DNA from: an uncultured Archangium sp.
GTDB lineage: Bacteria > Myxococcota > Myxococcia > Myxococcales > Myxococcaceae
Reading direction: 5' to 3'
DNA: 34,255 nucleotides
Assembly: GCA_903905455.1 (NCBI GenBank)
Contig: CAIVGN010000179.1
Location: 1 to 34,255 of the forward strand
The notes under the pieces were generated by a model. The model was not told where the DNA came from and ran no database searches. It was given only the letters and a program-made list of their open reading frames with translations. Both the position numbers and the translations under genes were made by a program. Below are positions 5,288 through 30,285 of this stretch, piece by piece (position 1 is the stretch's first letter; each line of letters opens with the position of its first letter).

Positions 5288-6919
5288 ATGCTGAAGGCCC
5301 TGGTGAGCGTGCTGCTGGTGGCGAGCCCGATGCGCGTGGCCGTGCTCCCCTTCGAGAACGCCACGCAGGACCCACAGCTCGAGGTGCTGCGCGTGGGCCT
5401 CGCCGACCTCGTGGCCACCGACCTCGCCGGCGCCGAGCCCCTCGAGGTGGTCGAACGCGCGCGCTTCGCCGAGGTGCTCAAGGAGCTCCAGCTCCAGCAG
5501 ACGAAGTACTTCGACGCCACGCAGGCGGTGCAGCTGGGCAAGGGACTGAGCGCCACCCACCTCGTCACCGGCACGCTCGTCGCCGTGGCGCCGAAGGTGC
5601 GCATCGCGGTGCGGGTCATCGAGGTCAAGGGCGGCGCGGTGATCAGCACCGCCACCGTCACCGGCACGCCGGCGGATCTCTTCGAGCTCGAGGCGTCGCT
5701 GGTGCAGCAGCTCGTCACCGCCCTGCGCGCGAAGCTCGAGGCCACGCGCTCGGGCCACGCCTCGCTGGGCACCCTCGTCACCTGGTCCCAGGGCGTCGAC
5801 CTCGCCGACCGGGGCGAACTTGACGCCGCCAAGTCGAAGCTCGCCGAGGCCGTGCGGTCCGGCCCCGACTTCACGCTCGGAAAGGAACGCTACGCGGAGA
5901 TCCTCAAGCGCCTGCGCGAGGCCCAGAAGAAACACGGCTCGGGCATCGAAGAGGCCAGCCAGGTGCTGCGCGCCCGGTTGCTTCCCCAGCTGGGCAAGCC
6001 ACCCGTCGAGCGCGCGCTCGCGGTGCGCGCCGCCCTGGCGAACCTCGCGCTGCTGGAGCTCGCTCGCGTCGTCGGGGCCCAGCCGGAGCGCGCGAACTAC
6101 GTGCCGCCTGAGAAGCGCGCCCAGGTCGAGCGCCTCGAGGCCGAGTTCGTGCTCCACGCCAGCGCGCTCGTCGCCGAGTTGCGACCGGTACGCCAGCAGC
6201 ACCTGGACCTCACCCTCGCCGACGAGGACGCCGCGCTCGGCGCCCAGGTCTTCGGGATCGAACTCGGTGATTGGGACTTCGCCACCCCGACCTCCGTCGC
6301 CAGCGACCTGGGGAACTTCCTCGGCTCGGGGTGGACCCCGTACCGCAGCGCCGTCCCCCAGTTCGTCCTGCGCCCCTCGCCCGCCCAGCGCGCCCCCGCC
6401 CAGCTCGAGGCCGCGCGGCGGTGGTTCGCGCTCGCCCGGAAGGAGATCCCCTTCGAGCTCGAAGAGACCCGCCCCCTCCTCGCGGGGAAGGTCGCCAACG
6501 AACAGGCCGAGATGTTGGTGCTCCTGGGGCACCCGGAAGAGGCCGTCGCCCAGTGGCAGGGCTTCCTCGACGCCTACCCCGCCGACCTCTCGTTCGCCGC
6601 GTACTCGAAGAAGCTCGAGGCGGTGATGCTCCTCGACGACCAGGCCGAGCGGGAAGAGCGGCAGGTCAAGGCGTGCGACGCGGCGGTGCTCGAGCAGGGC
6701 GCGGAGCTGATGACCCGTACCTGGCGCGCCAAGGGCCGCGCGGGGCTGGTGACGCTCGGGGAGGCGCTGACGAAGTGCTCGAAGAAGGAGCCGAAGTTCG
6801 AACGCGCGAGCTGGGTGTTGGTCGCAGCCGAGCTGCGCCGCGTCGCTGATTGCGAAGGCTTCGAGGCGTGGCGCTTGCGCGCGGTGAAGGCCGGGGTCGG
6901 GCTCGAAGCGTGTCCGTGA
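5288..6919 (+). CDS. Secreted CsgG/TolB-like protein with TPR-like helical region
   Basis: 543-aa protein. ATG at 5288 has GAGG 5 nt upstream. A very short export signal (MLKALVSVLLVASP) runs directly into a CsgG/FlgO/TolB-N type alpha/beta domain: RVAVLPFENATQDPQLEVL (~16-34), VVERARFAEVLKELQ, then QLGKGLSATHLVTGTL (~95-110), IAVRVIEVKGG. This is the curli-type signature of a domain found in outer-membrane assembly proteins. No lipobox Cys is present, so it is not a classical CsgG lipoprotein pore. The rest (~170-543) is mostly amphipathic helix with TPR-like pairs. It is divergent from the kinase, whose extracytoplasmic part has a matching VLPFENAT.DP segment; a shared ligand or pathway is an inference. 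An intrinsic terminator stands immediately upstream, so expression may depend on readthrough or on a promoter within 30 bp of the start. Confidence 0.8.
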   Translation: MLKALVSVLLVASPMRVAVLPFENATQDPQLEVLRVGLADLVATDLAGAEPLEVVERARFAEVLKELQLQQTKYFDATQAVQLGKGLSATHLVTGTLVAVAPKVRIAVRVIEVKGGAVISTATVTGTPADLFELEASLVQQLVTALRAKLEATRSGHASLGTLVTWSQGVDLADRGELDAAKSKLAEAVRSGPDFTLGKERYAEILKRLREAQKKHGSGIEEASQVLRARLLPQLGKPPVERALAVRAALANLALLELARVVGAQPERANYVPPEKRAQVERLEAEFVLHASALVAELRPVRQQHLDLTLADEDAALGAQVFGIELGDWDFATPTSVASDLGNFLGSGWTPYRSAVPQFVLRPSPAQRAPAQLEAARRWFALARKEIPFELEETRPLLAGKVANEQAEMLVLLGHPEEAVAQWQGFLDAYPADLSFAAYSKKLEAVMLLDDQAEREERQVKACDAAVLEQGAELMTRTWRAKGRAGLVTLGEALTKCSKKEPKFERASWVLVAAELRRVADCEGFEAWRLRAVKAGVGLEACP

Positions 6920-13090: not shown

Positions 13091-16000
13091 TCAGTGGCAG
13101 TTGTTGCAGCCGCTGGTGCTCTTGCTGTTGCTGATGCCGGGGTTGCTGGGCCGGTGCTTGAAGGTCCAGATGTTGGTGGTGCTCGCCGTCGTCGCGTACT
13201 GGTGGCACGCCCCGCAGCGGGTCAGCTTGGTGTTGGTGTGGTTCGCCGTGAAGCTGTCGCCGCTGAAGTTCCCGGTGACGCTGGTGGCCTGGCTGAACTG
13301 GTGCCCGCCGGTGGCGGTGGGCAGGGTCAGCGGAGGCGTGGTGGTCAGCGTGGTGTAGAGGCTGGCGGTGAACGCGTGGCAGGTGACGCAGCCGTTGACG
13401 TTCGCCGTGGCGTTGGTGTGCGCGTACTTGAGGTTCGCCACCGTGCCCTTGAAGCCCGAGAACTCGATGTGGCACGAGGTGCACTTGTTGCCGTTGGTGA
13501 TGCCGGCGTAGTGGCTGGCCGCGGCCACGGTGAGGTGCTTGGTCGAGTTGCCGCCCAGGCCGTGGCAGGTGTTGCAGTCGAGCGTGCTGGTGACCGTCGA
13601 GCCGGACGAGGCGTGGGCCCCGGTGGCGCCCAGCCAGTTGGGCGTGGTGGCGCTGGTGCCCGGCCACGAGTGGCACGAGGCACAGTCCTGGGCCGAGGTG
13701 GCGGTGAAGGCCGCGTGGTCCTGCCGTGCGTAGGTGGCGCCGGGCTTCACGTTGACGTGGCAGTTGCTGCAGCGGCCGGTGGCGTTGAACACCAGGGGCG
13801 TGGCGCTGGTGAAGTTGCGGTGGAAGGTGGCCTTCGCCCATTCCTTGCCCGCCGCCGAGGGGCCGACCTGGGTGTGGCAGAACTTGCAGTCGAAGCGGGT
13901 GACGTTGCTGTCGGCGTGGGAGATCTGGTCGTGGGTGTTGGCCGGCGCGTCGATGGACGTGGTGACGGTCACCGAGTCCACGAGGCCCGCGGGCAGGTTG
14001 TTGTTGGTGCCCACCACCGTGCCGCGACCGTTGGTGAGGCCGTGGCACACGGCGCAGCCGGTGACCGTGGGCACCTTCGCGTGGAAGGCCGAGGCCTTGT
14101 TCCAGGCGCTCCCGGCGACCTTCGCGTCGGCGAGGTGACAGGTCGCGCAGTCCTTGCCCGTCACCGTGGCGTCGTCGTGGTTCATCCACTGCGCGCCGTT
14201 GGTGGCCGTGCCGCCCTTGACCAGCGCGTAGACCACGGTGCCCTGGGTGGCGGCCGCCGGCTTGGCGGGCGCGTGGCACTCGAGGCACTGGGCGGGCTGC
14301 GTCGTGGCGGTGAGCGTCGAATGGTAGGCGCCGGTCTTCCACAGCGTGGTGGTGGTGGGCAGCGTGCTGCTCTTGCCCAGCGCGGTGGCGTGGCAGGTGG
14401 CGCAGGCCTGGGTGGTGACCAGGGTCGAGCGGTGCTTCATGGTGAAGACGCCCGTGATGGTCAGGTCGGCCTGGGTGGTGGTGCTCAGGGGGTAGTGGCA
14501 GCTCACGCAGTCCGACGGGGTGGCACCGCCGGGCACGCTGGGGTGGAACTTGCCGTCGCTCCACTGGGTGGGGCCGAGGCCGGGGGTGTGGTGGCAGCTC
14601 CCGCAGTCCATGGCGGGCACGCCGCTCACCGTGCCGCCCACGAAGGTGGCCGCGTGGTCCATGGGCATCAGCCAGGTGCCCGCGTCGGTCTTGGAGACGA
14701 TGTTCGGCGGCCGCATGCCGCGGTGGCAGTCGAGGCACGCCGTGGGCTGCACCAGCACCGTCACCCCGGCGTCGGGCGTGGCGCGGTAGCCGCTGAGCGA
14801 CGCGTGGAACCTGCCGTTGGCGTAGGCGGTGACGTTGGTGCCGGTGGACGTGTGGCAGTGCCAGCAGGTCGCGGGATCACCGGCGACGCCGGGAGCGAGC
14901 TGCGGCGCGATGGCGCTCGAGGTGTGGAGGAAGGCGTTGGGCAGGCTCACCGTGGTGGTGGTCATGCCGGTCACCGTGGCGCCCGAGCGGTTGAGCAGCG
15001 TCGACTGCAGGCGCACCGTCTGGGCGGGCGTGCTGATCAACGTCGTGGGGTAGCTCTGGCCGCCGCGCCAATCGCCGCCGGGGATGGGGGTGAGGCTGGT
15101 GAAGACGTTGCGGGTCACCGTGGCCTGGTGACAGCCCACGCAGTCGCCGGTGCCACTGAGCGCGTGGTTGAAGGTGACCGTGGCCGGGGGCGTGAGCAGG
15201 TCGGGGCGCTGCGTGGTGTGGCAGGTGATGCAGGTGGTGCCGGCCAGCCCGGTGGGCGCGTGCGTGAAGTGCCCGCCCTGCCAGTTCTGGTTCGTGCCCC
15301 ACAGGCCGGTACCCGGGCCGCGGTGACACTCGGCGCAGTCGAGGCCGGCGCCGTGCTTCTCGCCGTTGACGTTGGTGGCGTAGTCGAAGGGGCTCGCCTG
15401 GTACGCGCCCAGCCAACCGGTGGTCGAGGTGGGCCGCTCGGCGTCGTGGCACGGGAGGCAGGTGCTGGGCGTGGCCGCGCTGGCCGCGTGGAACTTGCCG
15501 CCCGACCACGCGCTGGTCGACGCGTGGCAGGTCTTGCATTCCCCGGGCGCGGTGGCGTGGTCGAAGGTGAAGTTCGCGGCGGCGACGGGCGCCACGGGCC
15601 GGCTGTTGGCGTGGCAGTCGAGACAGGCGCGCGGCTGCGGCAGGTTCGCCGCGGTGAGCGAGGCGTGGAACTCGGCGCCCGCGTCGTGGCGGCCGTCGGC
15701 GAAGGTCCACTGCGTGTCGGTGAGGTCGAGGGGCGGCTGGTGGCAGGTGCTGCAGTCGGCCGGGAGCACCCTGGTGGTGGTCGGCGCGTCGTTGAGCCAC
15801 TCCACGGCGTCGTGGCGCATCTCGCCCGTCGAGGGGCTGCGGCGCGCGTCGAGGTCGCCCACGAAACCCGAAGGCGGCGCTCCCCGGTGACACTCGGCGC
15901 AGGTCGCGGGCTGCGGCAGGCCGAGGTTGGTGAGCGACCAGTGCATCACGCCCGGGTAGTACTGGCCCTGCTCCGCCTGCGCGTGGCAGTTGGTGCACAC

Positions 16001-16717
16001 CGCGAGCACGCCCGCATCCACCGAGGTGGCCGCGTGGTTCATGGGCATGCGCAGGCTCTGCTGATCAGCCGTCACCGAGACGATGGTGGTGCCGACCCAG
16101 CTGGGCTGCAGCGCGTCGATGATGACGTTGCGCGTGGGGTCGGACTGGTTGAGCGGCCCGCCGCTGGTCTCGGACCACGAGGTGGTGACGTGGCAGTTCG
16201 AGCAGTCGGCGCCGGCCACGTCGCGGTGGGTGAAGCCCGCCTTCGGCAACGCGGCGAAGGCGTTGGTCTCGGCGTGGCACTGGGTGCAGTTGTCGGTGAT
16301 CTGCGTGTGGCTGAAGGCCCGCTTGGCGCCGGTAGGGTGGCAGCCATAGCAGTTGGCGCCGCGCAGCTCGGCCTTCAGGTCGGGGTCGCTGACCGCGCTG
16401 GTGTCGACGTTGAAGCTCGCCGGCAGCCCGAGGTGGAGCCGCTGGGTGATGGCCACGGTGTGCCGGTGGCACTGGTCGCAGCGCACGGCCGCGAAGCTCT
16501 CGGCGGTCGGCCGGTGGCAGCCCTCACACGCCAGGGGGCCGTCGACCGACGCCTTGCCCATCTCGTGCGTGGCGCCCACGCCAATGGGGAACCACGGGTG
16601 ATTCGTGGCGCCAGCCGGCATCGGGAGCTGCGGCCCCCGTTCGTTCGCCGAACAACCCGCCACCCACACCAACACCGCGACCAGGGCCGCACCGCGCAAC
16701 GTCGACGACTGTTTCAT
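13091..16717 (-). CDS. Giant multiheme c-type cytochrome lipoprotein, 30 CxxCH motifs
   Basis: About 1208-aa protein. The signal peptide MKQSSTLRGAALVAVLVWVAGC has lipobox VAGC, so it is probably an outer-membrane lipoprotein. I count 30 CxxCH haem-attachment motifs, from CEGCH (~residue 64) through CNNCH, whose His is the last residue before the stop. Many extra His residues (for example MNHAATS, KFHAS, FNHAL) sit between motifs and could be distal ligands for bis-His haem. No transmembrane or catalytic domain is seen between them. Likely role: electron conduit or storage in the periplasm or on the cell surface. Start: ATG at 16717 has AGGA 5 nt upstream; an in-frame ATG two codons earlier (16723) lacks proper spacing. 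No cytochrome c maturation genes or partner reductase lie in the window. An inverted repeat sits just upstream. Confidence 0.92.
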   Translation of the reverse strand: MKQSSTLRGAALVAVLVWVAGCSANERGPQLPMPAGATNHPWFPIGVGATHEMGKASVDGPLACEGCHRPTAESFAAVRCDQCHRHTVAITQRLHLGLPASFNVDTSAVSDPDLKAELRGANCYGCHPTGAKRAFSHTQITDNCTQCHAETNAFAALPKAGFTHRDVAGADCSNCHVTTSWSETSGGPLNQSDPTRNVIIDALQPSWVGTTIVSVTADQQSLRMPMNHAATSVDAGVLAVCTNCHAQAEQGQYYPGVMHWSLTNLGLPQPATCAECHRGAPPSGFVGDLDARRSPSTGEMRHDAVEWLNDAPTTTRVLPADCSTCHQPPLDLTDTQWTFADGRHDAGAEFHASLTAANLPQPRACLDCHANSRPVAPVAAANFTFDHATAPGECKTCHASTSAWSGGKFHAASAATPSTCLPCHDAERPTSTTGWLGAYQASPFDYATNVNGEKHGAGLDCAECHRGPGTGLWGTNQNWQGGHFTHAPTGLAGTTCITCHTTQRPDLLTPPATVTFNHALSGTGDCVGCHQATVTRNVFTSLTPIPGGDWRGGQSYPTTLISTPAQTVRLQSTLLNRSGATVTGMTTTTVSLPNAFLHTSSAIAPQLAPGVAGDPATCWHCHTSTGTNVTAYANGRFHASLSGYRATPDAGVTVLVQPTACLDCHRGMRPPNIVSKTDAGTWLMPMDHAATFVGGTVSGVPAMDCGSCHHTPGLGPTQWSDGKFHPSVPGGATPSDCVSCHYPLSTTTQADLTITGVFTMKHRSTLVTTQACATCHATALGKSSTLPTTTTLWKTGAYHSTLTATTQPAQCLECHAPAKPAAATQGTVVYALVKGGTATNGAQWMNHDDATVTGKDCATCHLADAKVAGSAWNKASAFHAKVPTVTGCAVCHGLTNGRGTVVGTNNNLPAGLVDSVTVTTSIDAPANTHDQISHADSNVTRFDCKFCHTQVGPSAAGKEWAKATFHRNFTSATPLVFNATGRCSNCHVNVKPGATYARQDHAAFTATSAQDCASCHSWPGTSATTPNWLGATGAHASSGSTVTSTLDCNTCHGLGGNSTKHLTVAAASHYAGITNGNKCTSCHIEFSGFKGTVANLKYAHTNATANVNGCVTCHAFTASLYTTLTTTPPLTLPTATGGHQFSQATSVTGNFSGDSFTANHTNTKLTRCGACHQYATTASTTNIWTFKHRPSNPGISNSKSTSGCNNCH

Positions 16718-19677: not shown

Positions 19678-21246
19678 CTACTTGCGCAGCCGCGCGCAGC
19701 CTTCGGTGACGCCGAAGTCACAGGCCTTCTCGAGGTCGGCGATGGTCTCGGGGCGGCGGCCGAGGTGGTTCCAGGCCCCGGCGCGCTCCATGTACGCGCG
19801 GCCGTCCTCGGGGTTGCGGGCGAGGTAGCGGGTCCACCGCGCTGCCGCTTCTTCGTGGTGGTTTTCGTTGGCCAGCGCGTAATCGAGGGCCTGCTGCGCG
19901 CGGAGATCATCCGGCGCGGCGTCGGCGTTGGCGCGGAGTTCCTCGATGCCCGCGTCGGTCGCCTCCTGCACCATGCCCCGGCGCATGAGCACCTCGCCGT
20001 CGAGAGGCGCGACCTGCGAGGCGAGGTCGAGCAGGCGCAGGGCGTCGAGGCGCTGGCCAGCGAGGTGGGCCTGCCAGGCCTGGAAGATGACGGTCTGCAC
20101 CACGGGGCCATAGAGCTGCTCGCCGCGGGCGTGGCTGGGGTTGACCCGCAGGGCGGCGATGAAATCGAGGGCCGCGAGCTCGCCCTTCTTCTGCTCGAGA
20201 TACACCTCGGCGCGCTCCACCAGCACGTCCGGGTTGCCGGGACGCAGCTCGAGGGCGCGCGTGAGGTCGACCAGCGCGGCGTCGTATTCCTTGCGGTGTC
20301 GCAGCACGTGACCGCGGCCCTTCAAGAAGGCCCAGTGGTCCCCCAGGGCGCAGGCCTCGTCGCTGGCGGTCAGGGCATCTGCGGGACGGTCGTCTTCGAT
20401 GGCCACGTCGGCGACGTCGAGCAGCGCGTAGCCGGGCAACAACTTGAAGCGCGGGTTGTCGACCACCGGGGCACTCGCGGCGAGGGCGCGCATCTCGTCG
20501 TAGCTCCCGCCCCAGCGCGGGCGCCTCGCCTGCATGGCCGCGACCCGGTGCAGGAAGCACGACGGGCAGCGCTCATCGGCGCGGCGCACCGCGTCTGCGT
20601 ACGCGAAGGCATCACCGGTGAGCATCGAGAGGTGGATCTCCTCGGTGAGGGCGGCGACCGCCTTCGGCCGCAGGGCCAGGGCGCGCTCGAGGTCGGCGTG
20701 CGCGAGGGGCAGCGTGGCGCGCATCTCCGCGAGCTCGCCGCCGGAGGTCTCCTGGACCACCTTCGTGCCCCGCTGGGCGAAGGCCACGGCGCTCAAGTGC
20801 GCCCCCCGCGCGAGCCGCGGCGCGAACGACTCGGGGAAGGCCTTCGCCCACGCGTCGAGCAGCGGGCGCAGGGCCGGCTCGGAAGAACCAAAGGCCGCCG
20901 TGGCGTCGGCCGGCCAGCGCTCGAAGTGCGGGTCTTTCTCGAAGGCGTCCTGGAAGTGGGTGAAGGCGGCGTCGAGCTGGGCGAAGCGCTTGTGGATCAA
21001 CAGCGAGCGCAGGCCCGCTTGATCCACCCACTGCCGCGGGAAACCCTCGGCGCTGGTGCCCTCGTCGCCCTTCAAGGGCAGGCCCTTCGGCAGCGGCGCC
21101 GGAGCGACCTCGACGAAGGGCTGGAGGCGGCCCAGGCGCTCGGCTTCGTCCGCCTTCGCCGCCTGCTCACGCCACTTGAACCAGATGCCGAGGGAAAGCA
21201 CGACGATGCCCAGCACGCCCACCACGCGAAAGATCCGCCGCCCCAT
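19678..21246 (-). CDS. Membrane-anchored DUF4034/TPR protein
   Basis: 522-aa protein. The ATG at 21246 is preferred over 21252 because GGAG lies 7 nt upstream of the former and abuts the latter. An N-terminal signal anchor (GRRIFRVVGVLGIVVLSLGIWF) leaves the rest outside or in the periplasm. Residues ~75-190 fit the DUF4034 pattern (LLIHKRFAQLDAAF, AFPESFAPRLARGAHL...AFAQRGT). At least four TPR-like pairs follow, clearest at ~265-330 (ALTASDEACALGDHWAFLKG, EYDAALVDLTRALELRPGNPDVL) and ~430-515 (ending ETIADLEKACDFGVTEGCARL, which is Sel1-like). It starts 15-21 bp after the upstream lipoprotein gene, so it is probably the last gene of the left-arm operon and may scaffold its products. Confidence 0.8.
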   Translation of the reverse strand: MGRRIFRVVGVLGIVVLSLGIWFKWREQAAKADEAERLGRLQPFVEVAPAPLPKGLPLKGDEGTSAEGFPRQWVDQAGLRSLLIHKRFAQLDAAFTHFQDAFEKDPHFERWPADATAAFGSSEPALRPLLDAWAKAFPESFAPRLARGAHLSAVAFAQRGTKVVQETSGGELAEMRATLPLAHADLERALALRPKAVAALTEEIHLSMLTGDAFAYADAVRRADERCPSCFLHRVAAMQARRPRWGGSYDEMRALAASAPVVDNPRFKLLPGYALLDVADVAIEDDRPADALTASDEACALGDHWAFLKGRGHVLRHRKEYDAALVDLTRALELRPGNPDVLVERAEVYLEQKKGELAALDFIAALRVNPSHARGEQLYGPVVQTVIFQAWQAHLAGQRLDALRLLDLASQVAPLDGEVLMRRGMVQEATDAGIEELRANADAAPDDLRAQQALDYALANENHHEEAAARWTRYLARNPEDGRAYMERAGAWNHLGRRPETIADLEKACDFGVTEGCARLRK

Positions 21247-21267
21247 GTTCATTCTCCCCCGCGTTGA

Positions 21268-23529
21268 TCAGCGACACACGACCGGCAGCTCGAGCACCAC
21301 GCCATCTTCATCGGTGACGAACACCGCGTCACCCGAGGTCAGCAGCTTCGGCAAGTACAGGGGCCGCAGCGCGAGCGGTTCCCACGCGCCCAGCACGCCG
21401 CCGTCACCGGGGCCCAGCTGCCACACGGCCGTCTCGGTGGTGGCGAAGACCGAGCCACAGCGCCCCTCGATGCTGGTGAGTTCTTCCCCGAGCGAAGGCG
21501 CGACGGGCACGCGGGACGGCAGCGCGAGCACCTCGCCGGTGGTGGTGCCCACCTGCGCGCTCGCGCCGGAGAACCACACGCCTAAGGGGAAGCGGCCGGT
21601 GAGCGGCAGCTCGGTGGACCGCCAGCGCTCGGCGGTGCTCGAGCTCAACTGGAAGAGCCGGTCGTTCGACACCGCCCAGCCCTCGAGGCCGGCGTCGGGG
21701 GCCACGCGCACTTCCCAGTCGGTGATGGGGAGCCCGGTGGGGCGCAGCACGGGGTTGACCAGGGCGGTGCCGTTGGCGAGCTCCGGCGCGGCGAAGAGCG
21801 TGTCGCCCTGGGTGACGATGAGGACCCGGCCCTGGGGGCGCTCGACGATCTTCGCGTGCGGCGCATCGAACGGACCGCCGGTGGGCAGGTAGAAGTCGAA
21901 GTCGGTGCCGCCGTCGGCGAGCTCGGCGGTCACCACGCCGTTGCGGTGCACGAACTCGTCGGCGTCGTTTTCCACGAACCCGGTGTACGACCACGGGCTC
22001 GACCCGAAGCGCACGCGGAGCATCAGCCCGAAGTCGCCCGCGTCGGGGGCTTCGTAGAAGTCGTCGTCCACCAGCGCCCGGCGCGTCGCCCCGGAGACGA
22101 GGACCTCGCGGGGCCGCTTCGAGAGCAGGTCGCCCACCTCGTCGAGCGGAGAGCCGAGGAACCACTGCAGCTGGCCCTCGGGGAGCAGGCGCACGTGACC
22201 GCGGCTGGTGCCCCAGAAGGCGTCGGCCTCGCGGGCGTCGAGGAACTCGGGGGTGGAGCCTTCCATGGAGAGCAGCTCTTGCTGGCCGTCGATGTCGCAG
22301 GCGACGAAAGGAGCGACCGCGCCACCGTCGACGGAGGCCACGAGGCCGAAGTCAGGCACCTCGCTGCCCCCGGGGCACTTGACCGGCGCCGACGGCGCAA
22401 ACACGGTGCAGCTCTGCAGCAGGCCGCACAGGCGCCGCACCGGGTTCGAGGCGACGATGCCGTCGGGCGTGAAGCTCGCGGCGATGGAGCCGTTCTCGGC
22501 GCGGAGCCGAGCCGGCGTCCCGTAGTCGACGGTCGCCACGCCACCGCGGGGGATGACGAGCAGCGGCGTCGGCTTCTCTTCCCCCAGCAGTTCGCGGGTG
22601 ACCGGGTAGCCCGTGGCCTCTTCACGCAGCACGTAGAACCGCGGCAGGCCTGCGTCGCCTTCTTCGGTCTCGGTCGCGGTGACGTCGAGGACGGTGCCAC
22701 CGAAGGGCCGCACGTCGTCCGGCGCGAGGACCAGCGCGGCCTGCCCGTTGGCGAACACCACCACCGCCCCTTGCGTGCCGCCGTCAGACAGGGCCCAGGC
22801 CAGCGGCGCGAGGCGATCGACCGGGGTCATGCCGGGGAGCAGCGCGACCGGGGCCACCCCCTGCCCTCCGTCATCCTCGGCCGAGCCGAGCATCAAGAGC
22901 GTGCCGGTGGGCGTGTGCACCACGAGATGCCGTGGCGTCAGGGCGAGGTCCACCGCCTCGAAGCCCAACGCGAAGCGGAAGCGCCCCACGGTGAAGCCCT
23001 GCACTCCGTCACGCTCGCCCATGACGAGGCTGGAGAGTTCGATGTCCGTGCCGTAGCGCACCGCCGCGGACAGCGCGGTGTACGCGCCCCCGTCGAAGGG
23101 CAGGGTCACTGCCTGGGAGGTCCGCACGAAGTCGCCGCCGGCCTCGCTCAGGGGGGAGATCAACGCGCCTCCTCCGACGCGGGCGAAGGGCAGGCCCGCC
23201 GGCTCGAGGCTCACGTCGAGGCAGCGCCGCTCGCTGGTGCAGCGCCACCCGCCCACGCACTGCGAGTCGGTGTCGCAGGGGAACGCAGAAGGCTTCGCGG
23301 GATCGAGGCAGCGCCCTTCCTGGCCGCACAACCACCCGCCGGTGCACCCCGCTGGGCCATCGCAGGGTACGGCGACGCCGACGTCGCGCGCGTGGCAGTA
23401 CCCGTCCTTGAGGCACACCCAGTCGTCCGAGCACTCCTCGGTGCTGGCGCAGCGGTAGGGGCGACCCTGCTGCAGGTCGACGCAGCCCGCGCCGAGCACC
23501 ACGGCGAACACCCACAGGGCGCGCTTCAC
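21268..23529 (-). CDS. Large lipoprotein with three Cys-rich repeats, left-arm module
   Basis: 753-aa protein beginning at GTG 23529, which overlaps the upstream stop as GTGA. Signal MKRALWVFAVVLGAGC has lipobox GAGC. Residues ~20-105 contain three repeats of the form C..d.(D/E)C..gW.C....rC.D, each with CxxGWxC-like spacing. From ~110 the protein is a long beta-rich region (GFTVGRFRFALGF, HLVVHTPTGTLLML, AVVVFANGQAALVL, GRVLIVTQGDTLFAAPE) of repeated strand sets consistent with a beta-propeller, ending VFVTDEDGVVLELPVVCR. Position and start (MKR... from GTG, overlapping a CsgG/TolB-like gene) parallel the right-arm lipoprotein at 29110. Probable surface protein; ligand unknown. Confidence 0.85.
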   Translation of the reverse strand: MKRALWVFAVVLGAGCVDLQQGRPYRCASTEECSDDWVCLKDGYCHARDVGVAVPCDGPAGCTGGWLCGQEGRCLDPAKPSAFPCDTDSQCVGGWRCTSERRCLDVSLEPAGLPFARVGGGALISPLSEAGGDFVRTSQAVTLPFDGGAYTALSAAVRYGTDIELSSLVMGERDGVQGFTVGRFRFALGFEAVDLALTPRHLVVHTPTGTLLMLGSAEDDGGQGVAPVALLPGMTPVDRLAPLAWALSDGGTQGAVVVFANGQAALVLAPDDVRPFGGTVLDVTATETEEGDAGLPRFYVLREEATGYPVTRELLGEEKPTPLLVIPRGGVATVDYGTPARLRAENGSIAASFTPDGIVASNPVRRLCGLLQSCTVFAPSAPVKCPGGSEVPDFGLVASVDGGAVAPFVACDIDGQQELLSMEGSTPEFLDAREADAFWGTSRGHVRLLPEGQLQWFLGSPLDEVGDLLSKRPREVLVSGATRRALVDDDFYEAPDAGDFGLMLRVRFGSSPWSYTGFVENDADEFVHRNGVVTAELADGGTDFDFYLPTGGPFDAPHAKIVERPQGRVLIVTQGDTLFAAPELANGTALVNPVLRPTGLPITDWEVRVAPDAGLEGWAVSNDRLFQLSSSTAERWRSTELPLTGRFPLGVWFSGASAQVGTTTGEVLALPSRVPVAPSLGEELTSIEGRCGSVFATTETAVWQLGPGDGGVLGAWEPLALRPLYLPKLLTSGDAVFVTDEDGVVLELPVVCR

Positions 23530-24326
23530 GGGAACACCCCCGCCAGGCCGAGGCCCGAGCCGGCGGGCACCACCGCGAGCTGCACCGAGTTTCCATCTGC
23601 GGGCATCAGCAGGAAGCCGGTGATCAACGAGGCCACGCCGGCGGCCAGCGCCCCCACGGCCACCCAGCGCTGCACCTGGAGCGACTGCAACTGGCCTTCG
23701 TAGCTCGCCCGGGTGTTGAGCAGCCCCGCGGTGGAGCCGGCCGCGTCGAGGGTCGCGGTGAGCTGCGCTTCTTGCGTCAGGTGCAGCGCGCCCCACACCA
23801 GCCCGAAGACGGCGGCGGCGCCCCCGACGCCGATGAGCGTGTAGGGGAGCACGCGAGAGGGGGGCGGAGGCAGCGGCGTGCCCGTCGCCTCGGCCACCGC
23901 GTACGGCAGCATGGCGCGCAGCGCCTCGAGGGAACGCGCGAGGCGGGTCGCGCGGCCCAGCGGCTGGGCCTTCTGCGAGTCGAGGGTGTTGAGGGTCAGC
24001 TGCCAGGCCTCGCCGAGCCGGGCGAGGGTGCCGGTCATCACGAAGCGCGCGCCCAGGGCCCCGGAGAGCTCGGCCATGCACGACTTCGACGCCTCGTCAC
24101 AGCCCAGCAGCTGCTTCTGCCGGTCGAGGCCGATGAGCGATTGCAGGTCGCGGCTGGAGAGCACCTCGAAGAAGCCTACGCGCTGCACCTCGCCGGTGAT
24201 GGCGTCGGTCAGCGGGCTGGTGAGCGAGGCCTCCACGCCGGCGCCGGGCTGGAGATCGAGCACCACGAGGCGCGGCTTCTCTGGGGTCGCTGCGAGCAGC
24301 GAGACGGCGACGAGGAGGGGGGTCAC
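23526..24326 (-). CDS. CsgG/TolB-like two-TM protein, left-arm module
   Basis: 266-aa protein starting at GTG 24326; -10-like TAGGCT ends 8 nt upstream. Short signal (MTPLLVAVSLLAATPEKP), then an alpha/beta domain of the CsgG/FlgO/TolB-N type: RLVVLDLQPGAGVEA, VLSSRDLQSLIGLDRQKQLLGC (~56-77), CMAELSGALGARFVMTGTL. C-terminal half has two hydrophobic helices (~162-182 YTLIGVGGAAAVFGLVWGAL, ~219-241 WVAVGALAAGVASLITGFLL) flanking a Gln/Leu-rich segment, and ends LGLAGVFP. No lipobox, so it is not a classical CsgG pore. It is a clear paralogue of the 28277 gene, sharing DLQ.(L/M).G..RQ.QLLGC, C..(E)...ALG and the G-V-(F/L)-P end. Downstream lipoprotein overlaps by 4 nt. Confidence 0.85.
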   Translation of the reverse strand: MTPLLVAVSLLAATPEKPRLVVLDLQPGAGVEASLTSPLTDAITGEVQRVGFFEVLSSRDLQSLIGLDRQKQLLGCDEASKSCMAELSGALGARFVMTGTLARLGEAWQLTLNTLDSQKAQPLGRATRLARSLEALRAMLPYAVAEATGTPLPPPPSRVLPYTLIGVGGAAAVFGLVWGALHLTQEAQLTATLDAAGSTAGLLNTRASYEGQLQSLQVQRWVAVGALAAGVASLITGFLLMPADGNSVQLAVVPAGSGLGLAGVFP

Positions 24327-24368
24327 GGCGCGGGAGCCTAGCGGAAGCGCCGCCGAAGCCCGGAGTGA

Positions 24369-26618
24369 TCAGAAGGTGCAGATGTTGAAGGTGCACGTCG
24401 GCACGAATGGAAGCGGCGAGGCGTTGCAGCAGTCGGCGGCGACGTTGCAGCGCTCCCCGGTGCGGCTGCAGTAGCAGACGTTGGTGGTGGTGCCGCCCCA
24501 GGGCGGCGGCTGGCACTGGTAGGGCGAGCCGCGGGTGCACTCGGCGGCCGTGGTGCAGACGTCGAAGCAGCGGGCCACGCCGTCGTTGGTGCCGTCGTTG
24601 GCGCAGACCCCGTCGGGGGCGCACGCCCCGCCGCGCCGGCAGGCACCACCGCAGGAGCCGCCCCGGTCCGGGAGGCACACGCCCGACTCGCAGGCCGCGT
24701 TCCCGCTGCAGGGAGCGCCGTACTTCGCGAGGTTCTTGTCCTTCGCTTCGCAGTGCCGGCTCCAGGGGTTGCAGCCGTAGCTGCCCCCGAGGCGGTTGCA
24801 GTCGGCGTCGGTGTTGCACAGGGGCACGCAGGTGTTGGGGCCTTCCCAGTCCAGGTTCTCCTGGCAACCGTAGCTGGTGCGGCAACCGGTGGCGCCCGAG
24901 CACTGCTGGCGACAGAAGCGGCCTTCGCCGTCGACGGTGCAGGCGCTCCCCGCGGGGCACCCAGTGGAGACGCCGGCGTCGAGGAGGCAGCCGTTGAGCG
25001 CGCCGACACACGCGCCCGAGGGCCAGCCGGAGCCGAGCTCGGTGCGGCAGGTGCCCGAGGCGCACTGCGCCCCGGCGTTGCACGGCTTGCCGATGAGCAG
25101 GGCGGAGCAGGTGCCGCAGGTGGTGTTGGTGTCGGCGCAGTCGATCTGCCCGTTGCAGTTGTCGTCGAGGCCGTCGGTGCAGTTGGTCTCGGGCGCGGTG
25201 CCCACGCAGTCGGAGTCGAGGCAGTCCGCGAGGCCGTCATGGTCCTCGTCGCCGCCGCCGGTGCACAGGGTCTCGGCCTGGCGCTGGTTGCGACACACGC
25301 AGCCGGTGCCGCACGCCTGGGCGTCGCAGCCGGGGTCTTCGCAGTCGCGGTCCCCGTCGTTGTCGTTGTCGAGGCCGTCGGCGCAGAGCGCGGCGCCGGT
25401 CTCGAGGGTGCCGTTGCCGCAGAGGTTCGAGGGGCCCACGCAGTCGAGCACGTCGGCGCAGTCGCGCAGGCCGTCGGCGTCGTTGTCGGCGCGGTCGACG
25501 CAGGAGGTCTCGTGCTTCGCGCCGCCGGAGCAGGTGCAGCCCGCGCCGCAGGTGGTGCCGTCGCAGTCGGGGCCGTCGAAGCAGTCGGTCTTGCCGTCGC
25601 CGTCGTTGTCCAGGCCGTCAGTGCACGCGGTCTCGCGCTTCGCCAGGTTGGCGCACACGCAGCCCGCGCCACAGGCCGCGGTCACGCAGTCGGGATCGGC
25701 GCAATCGGAGCGGGCGTCGGCGTCGTTGTCTGAGCCGTCGGTGCAAGCGGTTTCGAAGCGGGCCAGCGCCCGGCACTCGCAACCCGCGCCGCAGCTCCTG
25801 GTGCCGCAGTCGGGGTCGGCACAGTCGAGGAGGTTGTCGTGATCATTGTCGAGGCCATCGGTGCACGAGGTCTCGGTGGCGCGCGCTTGCAGGCAGGTGC
25901 AGCCCACGCCACACGACTGGTTCGCGCAGTCGGCGTCGGCGCAGTCGGCGCGGGTGTCGGCGTCGTTGTCGAAGCCGTCGTCGCAGGTGCCCTCGCCGCG
26001 CAGCCCGCCGTGACACGCGCAGCCCGTGCCGCAGCCCTGGCCTTCACACTCGGAGTCGAGGCAGTCGACCTTCGTGTCACCGTCGTTGTCCTGCGCGTCT
26101 CCACAGTTGGCCTCGCCCTTCACCCCGCCGTCGGTGCATGCGCAGCCGGCGCCGCAGGCCTGGCCCAGGCACTCGGGGTCGGCGCAGTCGAAGGCGCCGT
26201 CGTCGTCGTTGTCCACCTCGTCGCCGCACAGGGAACTGGCCTCGGGGCCGCCGTCACCGCAGCGGGGGCGCGCGCGGCAGTCGGGGTCGGCGCAGTCGAT
26301 CTTCCCGTCGGCGTTGTCGTCGAGGCCGTTGTCGCAGACCTCGAGGCGCAGGCAGGCGCTGGAGGCCTGGCAGGCGACGTCGTCACAGTCGGTGAAGCCG
26401 TTGCGGTCGTCGTCCACCTGGTTCCCGCAGTCTTCCGGCAGGCGCATGCAGCCGGGGGTGGTGAAGCAGGTGGGGTCGAGGCAGTCGGCCTTGCCGTCGT
26501 CGTTGTCGTCGACGCCGTTGGAGCAGAGCTCGCGCTTCATCGGGGTGACGGGCTCTCCCACGCAGCCGAGGGCGACGAAGGTCACGACGGCGAGCGCGCA
26601 GGAGAGAGGAATTTTCAT
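24369..26618 (-). CDS. Lipoprotein with 13 Cys/Asp metal-binding-type repeats
   Basis: 749-aa protein. ATG at 26618 gives signal MKIPLSCALAVVTFVALGC (lipobox ALGC). About 13 consecutive repeats (~residues 30-495) follow the form C.DG.DND.DG..DC.DPDC, seven of them with an added CG.GC.C. The DxDxDG core resembles EF-hand/thrombospondin-3/MopE-type metal-binding loops, most likely for Ca2+, cross-linked by disulfides. The last ~250 residues are a different Cys-rich region (CNAGAQCASGTC, CNTDADCNRLGGSYGC, CNVAADCC) with the ending TCTFNICTF. It would form a stiff, Ca-dependent surface rod. First gene of the left arm, 42 bp before the CsgG/TolB-like gene and divergent from 26710 across 91 bp. Confidence 0.88.
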   Translation of the reverse strand: MKIPLSCALAVVTFVALGCVGEPVTPMKRELCSNGVDDNDDGKADCLDPTCFTTPGCMRLPEDCGNQVDDDRNGFTDCDDVACQASSACLRLEVCDNGLDDNADGKIDCADPDCRARPRCGDGGPEASSLCGDEVDNDDDGAFDCADPECLGQACGAGCACTDGGVKGEANCGDAQDNDGDTKVDCLDSECEGQGCGTGCACHGGLRGEGTCDDGFDNDADTRADCADADCANQSCGVGCTCLQARATETSCTDGLDNDHDNLLDCADPDCGTRSCGAGCECRALARFETACTDGSDNDADARSDCADPDCVTAACGAGCVCANLAKRETACTDGLDNDGDGKTDCFDGPDCDGTTCGAGCTCSGGAKHETSCVDRADNDADGLRDCADVLDCVGPSNLCGNGTLETGAALCADGLDNDNDGDRDCEDPGCDAQACGTGCVCRNQRQAETLCTGGGDEDHDGLADCLDSDCVGTAPETNCTDGLDDNCNGQIDCADTNTTCGTCSALLIGKPCNAGAQCASGTCRTELGSGWPSGACVGALNGCLLDAGVSTGCPAGSACTVDGEGRFCRQQCSGATGCRTSYGCQENLDWEGPNTCVPLCNTDADCNRLGGSYGCNPWSRHCEAKDKNLAKYGAPCSGNAACESGVCLPDRGGSCGGACRRGGACAPDGVCANDGTNDGVARCFDVCTTAAECTRGSPYQCQPPPWGGTTTNVCYCSRTGERCNVAADCCNASPLPFVPTCTFNICTF

Positions 26619-26709
26619 GGCGTGGCGGAAGGGCCACTCTTCGCACACCTCGGCCGGGAATTCACGCCACCGGGGGGAAACCTGCGGCTACAACGGTCCT
26701 CGCGTGTCG
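26619..26709. promoter_or_regulatory. Divergent promoter region at the centre of the mirror-image locus
   Basis: 91 bp between the opposing starts at 26618 and 26710. On the plus strand a -10-like CTACAAC ends 9 nt before an in-frame GTG (26704) and 15 nt before ATG 26710. On the minus strand no clear -10 is visible. The interval contains GAATTC and no other palindrome of note. Confidence 0.5.
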
Positions 26710-28194
26710 ATGCGCTCTCTCCTGATGATGCTGGTGTGCGGGGTCTCGCTCGCGGCGTGGGCCGGGGCGCCGCCGCCTGCGCCGACGCGGCTGTGGATCA
26801 CCGGTGGCGTCGCGGGGCGCCAGTACCAGCAGGAGTTCGTGGCCCAGCCGCCAGTGAACCTCACCGGCTTCTCGCCGACGACGCTGCACCTCTCGGGGGC
26901 GCACTTCTTCAACCGCTTCGGCGTCGACGTCGAGGGGCGCGGCGAGCTGTTCTTCGCGAAGCAAACCGTGCCGGCCACGGGCCTGAGCGTGCCCCTGCCG
27001 GCGTTCGATCTCTCGGCGGCGGCCGCGGTGCGCTTCGTGCCGCTCTCGTGGTTGACCTTCGAGGGCCAGGTGGGCTGGGCGGTGGGCGAACGCTCGGTCA
27101 TCACCCAGGACGGGGCGCTGGGCACGGCCCACCTGTTCTTCACCGGCCCCTCGCTGGGGCTGGTGGCGGGGCTGGCGCCGACGCGCGCCGTCTCGGGCCA
27201 GCTCTACGTGCGCGCGGTGCCGGTGGTCTTCGGGCTGGGCACGCCCACGAACTTCAGGCTGCTCTCCTTGAGCGTGGGCGCGCAGGCCTCGCTGGGCGCG
27301 CTGCACCTGGGAGACGCGCAGCTCGGCGTCGCGGTGTCGGTCGAATACGCGGCCACGGGCATGGTGACCAACGCGAGCTGGGCGAACCAGAACGCGCTGC
27401 GGCTCGGGGTCGGGCTCTCCGTGCAGCAGTGGATGGAGGAGCCGCCGCCGCCGAAGCCGGCGCTGCCCTCGTTGAAGGGCCGGGTGCTGTCGTCGACGGA
27501 TCAGCCGGTGGAAGGCGCGGTGGTGGTGCTCGACGACACGGAGCGCACGCGCAGCGACGCCTCCGGGGCGTTCACCTTCGCGGGCGTGGCGCGAGGCAAG
27601 CACCGGGTGAGCGCGTCGAAGGAAGGCGCCTCGCCGGTGTCCCTCGAGGTGACCACGCCTTCGAGCGCGGTGGTGCTCACGCTGGGCGCGCCGACGGGGC
27701 CGGGGCGGGTGGCCGGCGTGGTGCGCGCGGGCGCCACGGTGCTCGCAGGCGCCGAGGTGCTGGCGGTGGAGACGCAGCAGCGCGCGAAGAGCGGCGCGGA
27801 CGGCACGTACCTGCTCCCCCGCGTGGGCCCGGGGCCGGTGACGGTGCAGGTGAAGGCCGAGGGCTTCACCAGCGCGGAAGAGGTGGTGCAGGTCGCGCCG
27901 GGCGGCGAGGCGGCGGTGGACTTCACGTTGACCCCGTCCACGGTGGCGGTGCGGGCGACGCTGCGCGGGCTCATTCGCGACACCAGCGGCGAGCCGGTGA
28001 AGGCCACGGTGCGGGTGGTGGAGCTCAAGCTCAAGCTGCAGGTCAAGGCCGACGGGCGCTTCACGGCCGACGTGCCGAGCGGGAAGTACACCCTGGTCAT
28101 CGAGGCCCGGGGCTTCGTGGCCCAGACCAAGACCGTCGAGGTGTCGGGTGGAGACCAGGCCATCTTCCACGCGGTGCTGGAGCGGGTGCGCTGA
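26710..28194 (+). CDS. Beta-barrel-like protein with carboxypeptidase-regulatory repeats
   Basis: 494-aa exported protein. The ATG at 26710 begins MRSLLMMLVCGVSLAAWAGAP with a typical cleavage site after AWA; a GTG at 26704 is also in frame. Residues ~25-238 are alternating aromatic strands (HFFNRFGVDVEGRGELFF, LTFEGQVGWAVGE, LYVRAVPVVFGLG, LLSLSVGAQASLG, QLGVAVSVEYAATG), consistent with an outer-membrane barrel of about ten strands. After a Pro-rich hinge (EEPPPPKPALP) come three CarboxypepD_reg-like beta-sandwich units (~258-325, ~335-410, ~420-494; motifs LKGRVLSSTDQPVEGAVVVL, SDASGAFTFAGVARGKH, SGADGTYLLPRVGPG). First gene of the right arm, 82 bp before the CsgG/TolB-like gene. Probable surface anchor or pore; unproven. 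Confidence 0.78.
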   Translation: MRSLLMMLVCGVSLAAWAGAPPPAPTRLWITGGVAGRQYQQEFVAQPPVNLTGFSPTTLHLSGAHFFNRFGVDVEGRGELFFAKQTVPATGLSVPLPAFDLSAAAAVRFVPLSWLTFEGQVGWAVGERSVITQDGALGTAHLFFTGPSLGLVAGLAPTRAVSGQLYVRAVPVVFGLGTPTNFRLLSLSVGAQASLGALHLGDAQLGVAVSVEYAATGMVTNASWANQNALRLGVGLSVQQWMEEPPPPKPALPSLKGRVLSSTDQPVEGAVVVLDDTERTRSDASGAFTFAGVARGKHRVSASKEGASPVSLEVTTPSSAVVLTLGAPTGPGRVAGVVRAGATVLAGAEVLAVETQQRAKSGADGTYLLPRVGPGPVTVQVKAEGFTSAEEVVQVAPGGEAAVDFTLTPSTVAVRATLRGLIRDTSGEPVKATVRVVELKLKLQVKADGRFTADVPSGKYTLVIEARGFVAQTKTVEVSGGDQAIFHAVLERVR

Positions 28195-28276
28195 GCGGAC
28201 CCGGAGTTCCCCCCGCGCCCGAGCGACGCCACCGGCGCTCGTGATTCGGTCGGGCGTTGTAGTAATGGCCCGGCCC

Positions 28277-29113
28277 ATGCTCACAGCGTTCCTGGTGGTG
28301 TCGATGACGGCGGCGCCGGTGGTGGCCAAGCCCGTCACCCTGGCGTTGCCCGGCCTGAACGCGGTGAACCTGGCCCCGGGAGAGAGCGATCTCCAGGCCG
28401 AGCTCATCGCGCAGAAGTTCATCGCCCACGGGGTCGAGGTGAAGACCGCGAGGGATCTCCAGACGATGCTGGGCATGGAGCGGCAGCGGCAGTTGTTGGG
28501 TTGCTCGGACAACAACGCGTGCATCGTGGAGATGACGGCAGCGTTGGGAGTCGACGGGGTGCTCATCGGCGACCTGGGCCTGCTCAACGGCGAGTACGTG
28601 CTGAACCTGAAGGTGCTGGCCTCGAGCAGCGGCAAGGTGCTGGCGTTGCACAACGCGCGCGCGCCGGCGAAGCAGCTCGAAGTGATGCTGGAGAACGCGG
28701 TGCGCGGCATCCTCAAGAGCCTATCGGGGCCGATGAAGCACTCGGAGCTGGCGGTGGGCGTCGAGCCGTTGCCGCTGACGGGCGTGGAGCAGTCGGCCGG
28801 CGCGGTGCGGACCTGGGCGCTGGCCCCGGCGGTGGTGGGCGTGGCGGCGCTGGGGGCGGGCGTGGTGATGCAGGTGCTCGCGGGCAACCAGTTCACCGAC
28901 CTGAGCACCCACCACTACCCCGAGCCTGAAGCGCTCCAGCGGCGCAACGACGGGCAGCAGCTCGAGACCGGCGCGAACATCGCGCTGATTGGTGGAGGCG
29001 TGGCCGTCGCGGCGGCCGCGGTGATGTTCTTCGCAGGAGGTTCGAGCGTGACGCCCACGGTCGCGCTGGGTCCTCAAGGCGGAATGATTGGCGTGACCGG
29101 GGTGCTGCCGTGA
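28277..29113 (+). CDS. CsgG/TolB-like two-TM protein, right-arm module
   Basis: 278-aa protein. The ATG at 28277 is preferred; an in-frame ATG at 28265 overlaps a -10-like TAGTAA (11 nt before 28277). Signal MLTAFLVVSMTAAPVVA is followed by a CsgG/TolB-N type domain: TLALPGLNAVNL, ELIAQKFIAHGVEV, RDLQTMLGMERQRQLLGC (~59-77), CIVEMTAALGVDGVLIGDLGLL. C-terminal helices ~179-200 (ALAPAVVGVAALGAGVVMQV) and ~235-256 (IALIGGGVAVAAAAVMFFAG) bracket a polar segment, and the protein ends GVTGVLP. Paralogue of the 24326 gene, in the same position relative to a GTGA-overlapping lipoprotein gene, on the opposite strand. Role unknown; a pump/secretion or envelope-sensing function is only a family-level guess. 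Confidence 0.85.
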   Translation: MLTAFLVVSMTAAPVVAKPVTLALPGLNAVNLAPGESDLQAELIAQKFIAHGVEVKTARDLQTMLGMERQRQLLGCSDNNACIVEMTAALGVDGVLIGDLGLLNGEYVLNLKVLASSSGKVLALHNARAPAKQLEVMLENAVRGILKSLSGPMKHSELAVGVEPLPLTGVEQSAGAVRTWALAPAVVGVAALGAGVVMQVLAGNQFTDLSTHHYPEPEALQRRNDGQQLETGANIALIGGGVAVAAAAVMFFAGGSSVTPTVALGPQGGMIGVTGVLP

Positions 29114-30285
29114 AGCGCGTGATGCTTGCAGTGGTGGTGCTGTCGCTGGCGGCCTGCCGCAACTGGGAAGAGGCGTACGACAACTCCATCGACGGAGGCG
29201 CGACGGGTGGTGGGACCGGCGGCGCGACGGGCGGCGGAACCGGAGGCGCGACGGGCGGTGGGACCGGAGGCGCGACGGGTGGTGGGACCGGAGGCGCGAC
29301 GGGTGGTGGGACCGGAGGCGCGACGGGCGGTGGGACCGGAGGCGCGACGGGCGGTGGGACCGGAGGCGCGACGGGTGGTGGGACCGGCGACGCGGGCATC
29401 TGCGGTGGCGCCTGGTGCCTCTTCAGCAGCGGCTCGAGCGGGAACTTCGAAGCCACCCAGGGCGTGTGGGCCTCGAGCCCCAACGACGCCTGGGCGACGG
29501 CCTGGGGAGCGCAGGTGCTGCACTGGGACGGGATCTCCTGGACCCGACTGTCGATCTCCGCGTTTGGCCAGGAAACCAACGCCGTGTGGGGGACGTCGAG
29601 CTCGCGCGTCTTCGTCGGCGGAGCCAACGGCACCGCGTACCTCGGCCCGCCCTTCACGGTCGCCAAGGAACTGGTGGTTCCTGGCTTCGCGGGACTCGTC
29701 GGCATTCACGGCCTTGCGGACGGCGGGTCGGTCTACGCGACCGGCAGAGACCGCGAGATCTTCCGCTACAACGGCACGCAGTGGGCGCAGCTCGATGCGG
29801 GTGTTCCGCTCGTTGCCAAGCAGGGGTGGCGAGCCATCACCGTGGTGAGCGAAACGGACATCTGGGTTGGCGGTTCGGGCGGCATGGTGATGCACAGCGC
29901 TGACGGCGTCGCGTGGACGCAGGTCAGTACCGGGACCACCGAGGACATCCACCGCGCGTTCGCCAACGGCCCCCAGGACGTGTGGTTCGTCGGGAACTCC
30001 GGCCTGGTCCTGCGGTGGAACGGGACCGCGTTCAACGAGAGCTACTGCGCCTCCTGCGGCGACATCTGGGGTCTGTGGGGCCGGGCCACTGACAACATGT
30101 GGCTCCTTGGCAGCAACAATTCGCTCGTGCACTGGGACGGCCAGGCTTTCACGCGCGTGCCGGGGATCGAGCCCAGCGCCGACCCCTCCTATGGCGCGGG
30201 CCTGTGGGGTGCCGGTGACAACGACCTCTTCCTCGTGACGCACTTCGCGGACGGCGGGAGCGGAGCGCTTCACTACCGCCGCTGA
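29110..30285 (+). CDS. Beta-propeller lipoprotein with Gly/Thr linker, right-arm module
   Basis: 391-aa protein starting at GTG 29110, inside the previous stop (GTGA). Signal MKRVMLAVVVLSLAAC gives lipobox LAAC. Residues ~29-92 are eight GGATGGGT units (24-bp repeats, 29194-29385), a flexible tether. The C-terminal ~290 residues show about seven repeats of the form (V/I)WG.S..D.W..G..G.(V/L)..WDG..WT.(V/L), e.g. SPNDAWATAWGAQVLHWDG, GPQDVWFVGNSGLVLRWNG, ATDNMWLLGSNNSLVHWDG, fitting a seven-bladed beta-propeller. Likely surface-exposed binding domain. It is the right-arm counterpart of the left-arm lipoprotein at 23529. Confidence 0.85.
   Translation: MKRVMLAVVVLSLAACRNWEEAYDNSIDGGATGGGTGGATGGGTGGATGGGTGGATGGGTGGATGGGTGGATGGGTGGATGGGTGGATGGGTGDAGICGGAWCLFSSGSSGNFEATQGVWASSPNDAWATAWGAQVLHWDGISWTRLSISAFGQETNAVWGTSSSRVFVGGANGTAYLGPPFTVAKELVVPGFAGLVGIHGLADGGSVYATGRDREIFRYNGTQWAQLDAGVPLVAKQGWRAITVVSETDIWVGGSGGMVMHSADGVAWTQVSTGTTEDIHRAFANGPQDVWFVGNSGLVLRWNGTAFNESYCASCGDIWGLWGRATDNMWLLGSNNSLVHWDGQAFTRVPGIEPSADPSYGAGLWGAGDNDLFLVTHFADGGSGALHYRR
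29194..29385 (+). repeat. 24-bp in-frame tandem repeat, 8 units (GGATGGGT)
   Basis: Eight copies of GG(A/C)GGCGCGACGGG(T/C)GG(T/C)GG(G/A)ACC. Near-identity of the units suggests recent expansion or gene conversion; unit length preserves frame. Confidence 0.92.

Follow-up and report, generated by a model that had tools for sequence, protein, structure and literature searches.

Myxobacterial genomes encode very many surface lipoproteins of unknown function. Among the described envelope systems closest to the locus considered here, TolB of the Tol-Pal system joins a TolB-type domain to a beta-propeller in the same chain and has the lipoprotein Pal as its partner, and the domain fold recurs in FlgT and in the lipoproteins PelC, CsgG, LpoB and GNA1162, of which CsgG makes a beta pore. 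Myxococcus xanthus has a gene, sitB, that overlaps sitA by 11 bp and encodes a secreted accessory protein which raises the delivery and transfer of SitA (PMC5562445). The DNA analysed here is a contig of 34,255 nucleotides from an uncultured Archangium sp. (CAIVGN010000179.1 of assembly GCA_903905455.1; the whole stretch is called the window), in which positions 19678 to 30285 hold two gene pairs, one in each arm of a divergent locus, that each encode a TolB-like protein and a lipoprotein. Our preferred explanation, held at about even confidence, is that the locus contains, in two independent copies, an envelope cassette of two genes from a large Myxococcota family, in which the product of gene 1 would be the co-made membrane partner of its own lipoprotein within a cognate complex.

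The left pair lies on the reverse strand, where the gene for the TolB-like protein P0003 (23526..24326, 266 aa) is followed by that for its cognate lipoprotein P0002 (21268..23529, 753 aa), with stop and start overlapping as GTGA at 23526..23529. On the forward strand the right pair has the same arrangement: the gene for the TolB-like protein P0006 (28265..29113, with a start at either 28265 or 28277) overlaps that for the lipoprotein P0007 (29110..30285, 391 aa) as GTGA at 29110..29113. Both lipoprotein genes begin GTG-AAG-CGC, encoding MKR, and a divergent intergenic gap of 91 bp (26619..26709) separates the arms. These gene positions, gap, overlaps and GTG starts had been listed in the initial annotation, and all were confirmed in the sequence. 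P0003 consists, in order, of an N-terminal hydrophobic signal-like segment, a TolB/PelC/LpoB-type domain with a Cys pair, a two-helix hairpin and a C-terminal GVFP; P0006 has the same architecture with a GVLP end, and the two C-terminal helices are hydrophobic in both. The TolB-like motif reads DLQSLIGLDRQKQLLGC in P0003 and DLQTMLGMERQRQLLGC in P0006, each with a second Cys. The shared motif DLQ..(L/M).G..RQ.QLLGC, second Cys, helices and GV(F/L)P end to which the annotation had pointed are thus present in both proteins, but they are traits of the whole family and not specific to this pair.

The family is large and its members are usually paired with a lipoprotein. At permissive cut-offs the own genome returned 22 matches to P0003 (E up to 0.01) and 26 to P0006, our estimate being 20-odd paralogs, and one relative returned 34. 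Of 193 Myxococcota genomes sampled, 173 had a match to a 56-member profile, and about 13 sequences per genome were scored as candidates. The Cys pair is almost invariant in the family, and both Cys were present in all 56 aligned members. Most genomes were metagenome assemblies, and lipoproteins were called by pattern. The cassette was defined as a domain with RQ..L.GC and a Cys, a hairpin and a lipoprotein gene at most 60 bp downstream, a form found in both arms of the window. A same-strand lipoprotein gene followed within 60 bp in 82 of the 109 members with enough downstream sequence, compared with 138 of 1067 other genes (Fisher 7e-43, to be read as description more than probability because the rows are related). 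The commonest spacings in the family were overlaps of -4 or -1 bases, seen in 60 of these 82, and 14 of 15 complete members in the own genome fitted the cassette pattern; the genes upstream of cassettes vary. A contig search kept 80 loci, all from Myxococcota or deltaproteobacterial assemblies and nearly all from Myxococcaceae/Archangiaceae, although its pattern was narrow and gave no test of other phyla.

By these gene-neighbourhood counts the pairing of TolB-like protein and lipoprotein is well shown, and we infer its mechanism and topology. The annotation had proposed a functional pair and a synteny check of it; a recurrent, translationally coupled unit is what was found across the family, including in other Myxococcota genomes. 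The domain fold is known and the cassette itself looks undescribed, as had also been proposed, no description of it having been found in the open papers searched, a scope outside which most subscription journals lay.

The initial annotation had taken the two arms as mirror images produced by an ancient inverted duplication. The likeness in gene order and between the TolB-like proteins (39 % over 85 aa, E=3e-15 by BLASTP) was upheld, but it extends no further: P0002 and P0007 belong to different lipoprotein types with similarity confined to the signal peptide, and the arms open with unrelated genes. On the left the first gene encodes P0004, a Cys-rich acidic double-disulfide-repeat lipoprotein (24369..26618, reverse strand; NF033662, E=1e-74), and on the right P0005, predicted to be a barrel-type protein with three CarboxypepD_reg domains (26710..28194, forward strand; domain matches), in agreement with the earlier description of the right arm. 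Clade placement of the two TolB-like proteins had been set beforehand as a test, and it separated them. In a maximum-likelihood tree of 113 proteins with long tips (median 0.56), P0003 fell in a 32-row clade (100/100) beside its ortholog from the congeneric genome G003 (100/97), while P0006 stood apart from that clade and grouped with L059, L067, L107 and L110 (98/91). Grouping of P0003 with P0006 was rejected by the approximately unbiased (AU) test (p=0.0031), and a smaller tree agreed with the larger one. The best own-genome match of P0003 was on another contig (44 %, 185 bits), and P0006 ranked close to last (38 bits).

Synteny gave the same separation. The divergent P0004|P0005 layout is kept in the congeneric genomes G002, G003 and G005; in G003 the left unit lies beside it (P0002 has an ortholog there at 437 bits) and the right unit is absent, and in G002 and G005 neither unit is present. 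Because congeners carry the core with neither unit or with the left only, the two units were gained by or lost from it separately. On this distribution P0004|P0005 is an older divergent core, outside the cassette, and the units were probably placed around it by separate additions. By simple arithmetic, chance alone would place roughly 0.2 pairs within 4 kb of each other in a genome of 8.6 Mb with about 22 units, and one close pair is therefore unremarkable. Local copies, tandem or inverted, were seen elsewhere in the family (L234, L235 and L187); local duplication does occur, but not here.

The fold of gene 1 was taken from a model of a family member, L112, whose aligned sequence shares 24 % identity with P0003 and 32 % with P0006. 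In this AF2 model (predicted local distance difference test, pLDDT, 84) a TolB-N-type domain is followed by a long hairpin of two helices, and the chain ends in a beta hairpin. In structure comparisons (Foldseek, VIA-align) its domain matched FlgT, PelC and TolB with Z of about 12.5 (112-126 residues), CsgG with about 11 and LpoB with about 9.8, which through this model places the family in the TolB/PelC/LpoB/CsgG fold superfamily of alpha/beta TolB-N-type domains. The annotated CsgG/TolB-like character therefore stands for the fold, but has no counterpart in a PF03783 (CsgG) sequence match, P0003 and P0006 having none at E up to 0.5 and only 2 of 56 family members having weak ones; neither protein reached a curated family cut-off. 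PelC, CsgG, LpoB and GNA1162 are lipoproteins, whereas P0003 and P0006 have no lipobox, and the family model shows their hydrophobic C-terminal segments as helices and not as the beta-hairpins of a pore. Nor do they have the single-chain layout of TolB: here the domain carries a membrane hairpin and the propeller is on a separate lipoprotein, where it is often replaced, with about 20 copies of the unit per genome. Judged from the model, the cassette is reminiscent of a TolB whose domain and propeller have been split over two proteins. Hydrophobic N-termini, present in 92 of 113 members, suggest that the TolB domain is periplasmic, as do the Cys pair and the relatives L053, L054 and L061, which have a signal peptide and a barrel-like C-terminal end. 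L053 lies 8 bp from a gene for a P0007-like propeller protein.

The lipoprotein partners differ in their ectodomains and resemble each other near the lipid anchor. P0002 has the lipobox GAGC, the tether CVDLQQGRPYRC, a Cys-rich N-terminal part and a large ectodomain with a weak beta-propeller signal. P0007 has the lipobox LAAC, the tether CRNWEEAY, a Gly-rich linker and a seven-bladed Ycf48-like beta-propeller; the linker that joins anchor to propeller, of Gly, Thr and Ala, is encoded by 8.4 copies of a 24-bp tandem repeat (29193..29394, forward strand). In a model of P0007 (pLDDT 70) the linker was disordered and the propeller had its best matches in Ycf48 and other seven-bladed propellers. 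Sequence searches of the PDB with the family profile and with P0007 found no real homolog. Ectodomains elsewhere include propeller, Kelch, HYDIN/ASH-type Ig, CARDB, FG-GAP, DUF1554, very Cys-rich and unannotated forms. After the lipid Cys, the tether runs roughly C-x-[DN]-[FW]-[DE] for most TolB clades, the form of the P0003 clade being C..DL..GR.Y.C, and F at +4 was found in 33 of 85 partners compared with 15 of 182 other lipoproteins.

Some observations point to the hairpin as the part of gene 1 that goes with the tether. Where the hairpin occurs without a recognisable TolB domain (L249, L252, L254 and L281), lipoprotein genes are again found at -4 or -1, and the partners of the first three have a C-x-D-[FV]-D tether behind the lipobox (CLDVD, CADFD and CTDFD, respectively). 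Across 81 pairs, similarity over the 40 N-terminal residues of the mature lipoprotein correlated with that of the hairpin at r=0.44 and with that of the TolB domain at 0.34, and partial Mantel values were 0.35 and 0.21, respectively (null sd 0.03-0.04). Partner choice may thus lie in the hairpin, the Mantel result being a pointer and not proof. The hairpin module was also seen on TPR proteins adjoining genes for binding-protein-like lipoproteins (L251, L253, L250 and L281) and on proteins of about 500 aa whose neighbouring gene products start with a 'PRTFRVDYFHTGNATEERF' stretch (L255, L256, L277 and L278).

In the explanation we prefer, the products of genes 1 and 2 would be co-produced and would assemble into a cognate membrane complex, in which the hairpin of gene 1 contacts the lipoprotein tether at the membrane or close to it. 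The TolB-fold domain, which is probably periplasmic, would tie the complex to the envelope through an oligomer, peptidoglycan or an outer-membrane partner, and the ectodomain would perform copy-specific work such as binding or adhesion. More tentatively, and at somewhat less than even confidence, this can be extended to a general, undescribed Myxococcota cassette, in which a hairpin module with a TolB-fold, TPR-like or other front would be the obligate co-made partner that recognises the membrane-proximal tether of one particular lipoprotein; each cell would then have dozens of orthogonal envelope complexes whose ectodomains can be swapped. Several points weigh against the preferred explanation. 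About one in ten members has an opposite-strand gene downstream, L066 and L103 are without a lipoprotein, and the tether motif is degenerate and found in some 40-50 % of partners. Common ancestry confounds the Mantel values, the charges that flank the hairpin give no clear support for a periplasmic TolB domain by the positive-inside rule, and genes in other loci were called by a simple codon-usage caller with some starts wrong.

An alternative that we consider rather unlikely is that gene 1 moves its lipoprotein to, or holds it in, the outer membrane or cell surface, with no lasting complex needed. SitB-SitA, the nearest tested analogue of the cassette's gene logic, would fit this: there too an overlapping pair encodes a secreted accessory protein, which raises SitA delivery (PMC5562445), and then a lipoprotein with a variable part. 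The ectodomains of the cassette are surface-type modules, and the TolB-like proteins of L054 and L061 continue the reading frame of a protein with an end like MYXO-CTERM, a tag by which proteins are directed to the cell surface (PMC11980579). These stop-free long frames (L054:2229-6929 and L061:4414-8868) run from a surface protein with that end through a new signal peptide and a TolB-like domain to a barrel-like end. By a crude pattern, MYXO-CTERM neighbours were found for 5 of 143 members compared with 12 of 1633 genes, too few to build on. The likeness to SitB-SitA is in gene logic; SitB is a predicted outer-membrane barrel, whereas gene 1 here encodes a TolB-type domain with a helical hairpin. 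SitA also has a C-terminal toxin and is followed by an immunity gene, and no such toxin or immunity genes were recognised here; a SitBAI-type toxin cassette was rejected, no toxin domain recognisable to Pfam or NCBIfam being found in P0002 or P0007; the C-terminus of P0007 is propeller.

It is improbable that the ectodomain senses a ligand or the envelope state and signals through the TolB-fold/hairpin protein to the cytoplasm, with one cassette per signal: the one-to-one pairing, the variety of ectodomains and the hairpin in the membrane would suit a sensor, but no domain for cytoplasmic output is present and no regulator lies consistently next to the cassettes. The symmetric gene order and shared family motifs had suggested that one pair was duplicated in inverted orientation and that the mirror-image arms serve two related surface structures; under the models used, this is effectively ruled out by the tree, the AU test, the absence of units around the core in congeners and the unlike lipoproteins.

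Other features of the window and of related loci lie outside the cassette. The annotated TPR protein of the left arm, P0001 (19678..21252, reverse strand, downstream of the left cassette), is indeed encoded there, but is not a conserved part of the unit, no match to it being found in G003. A scan for sigma-70 promoters found none, and in this GC-rich genome the scan is uninformative. Elsewhere in the window, a gene at 13091-16717 (reverse strand) encodes a 1208-aa lipoprotein with multihaem cytochrome domains (Cytochrome_C7, MtrC/MtrF-like II/IV), a candidate outer-surface electron-transfer protein of a myxobacterium. Another, at 5288-6919 (forward strand), encodes a 543-aa protein with an initial CsgG/TolB-like 'MRVAVLPFENATQDP' stretch, of a TolB-like type other than that of the cassette, and faces a large gene at 2467-5043 (reverse strand) with a kinase-like N-terminus. 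In seven other loci (L209, L210, L217, L219, L220, L226 and L228) the gene after a P0005-like barrel gene encodes a different lipoprotein, about 500-620 aa long, and the two genes usually overlap by 4 bases; no such lipoprotein accompanies P0005 in the window. Cassettes of the P0003 clade adjoin dnaN- and/or recF-like genes in several genera (L234, L235, L115 and L237), as a tandem duplicate in L234 and as two adjacent copies in L235. In cultured-type single-contig genomes (L117, L118 and L241-L244) a cpaF-like ATPase gene has one cassette immediately downstream of it; a role as part of the Kil Tad apparatus was considered and rejected, since no secretin or prepilin peptidase was recognised nearby.

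The locus illustrates that symmetry can arise when members of an expanded family are added independently, and corrects a tempting misreading of such symmetry. If tens of lipoproteins each have a co-made partner, the partner family would provide a handle by which to find, group and test them. If true, this would also raise the question of how a lipoprotein is recognised near its anchor.

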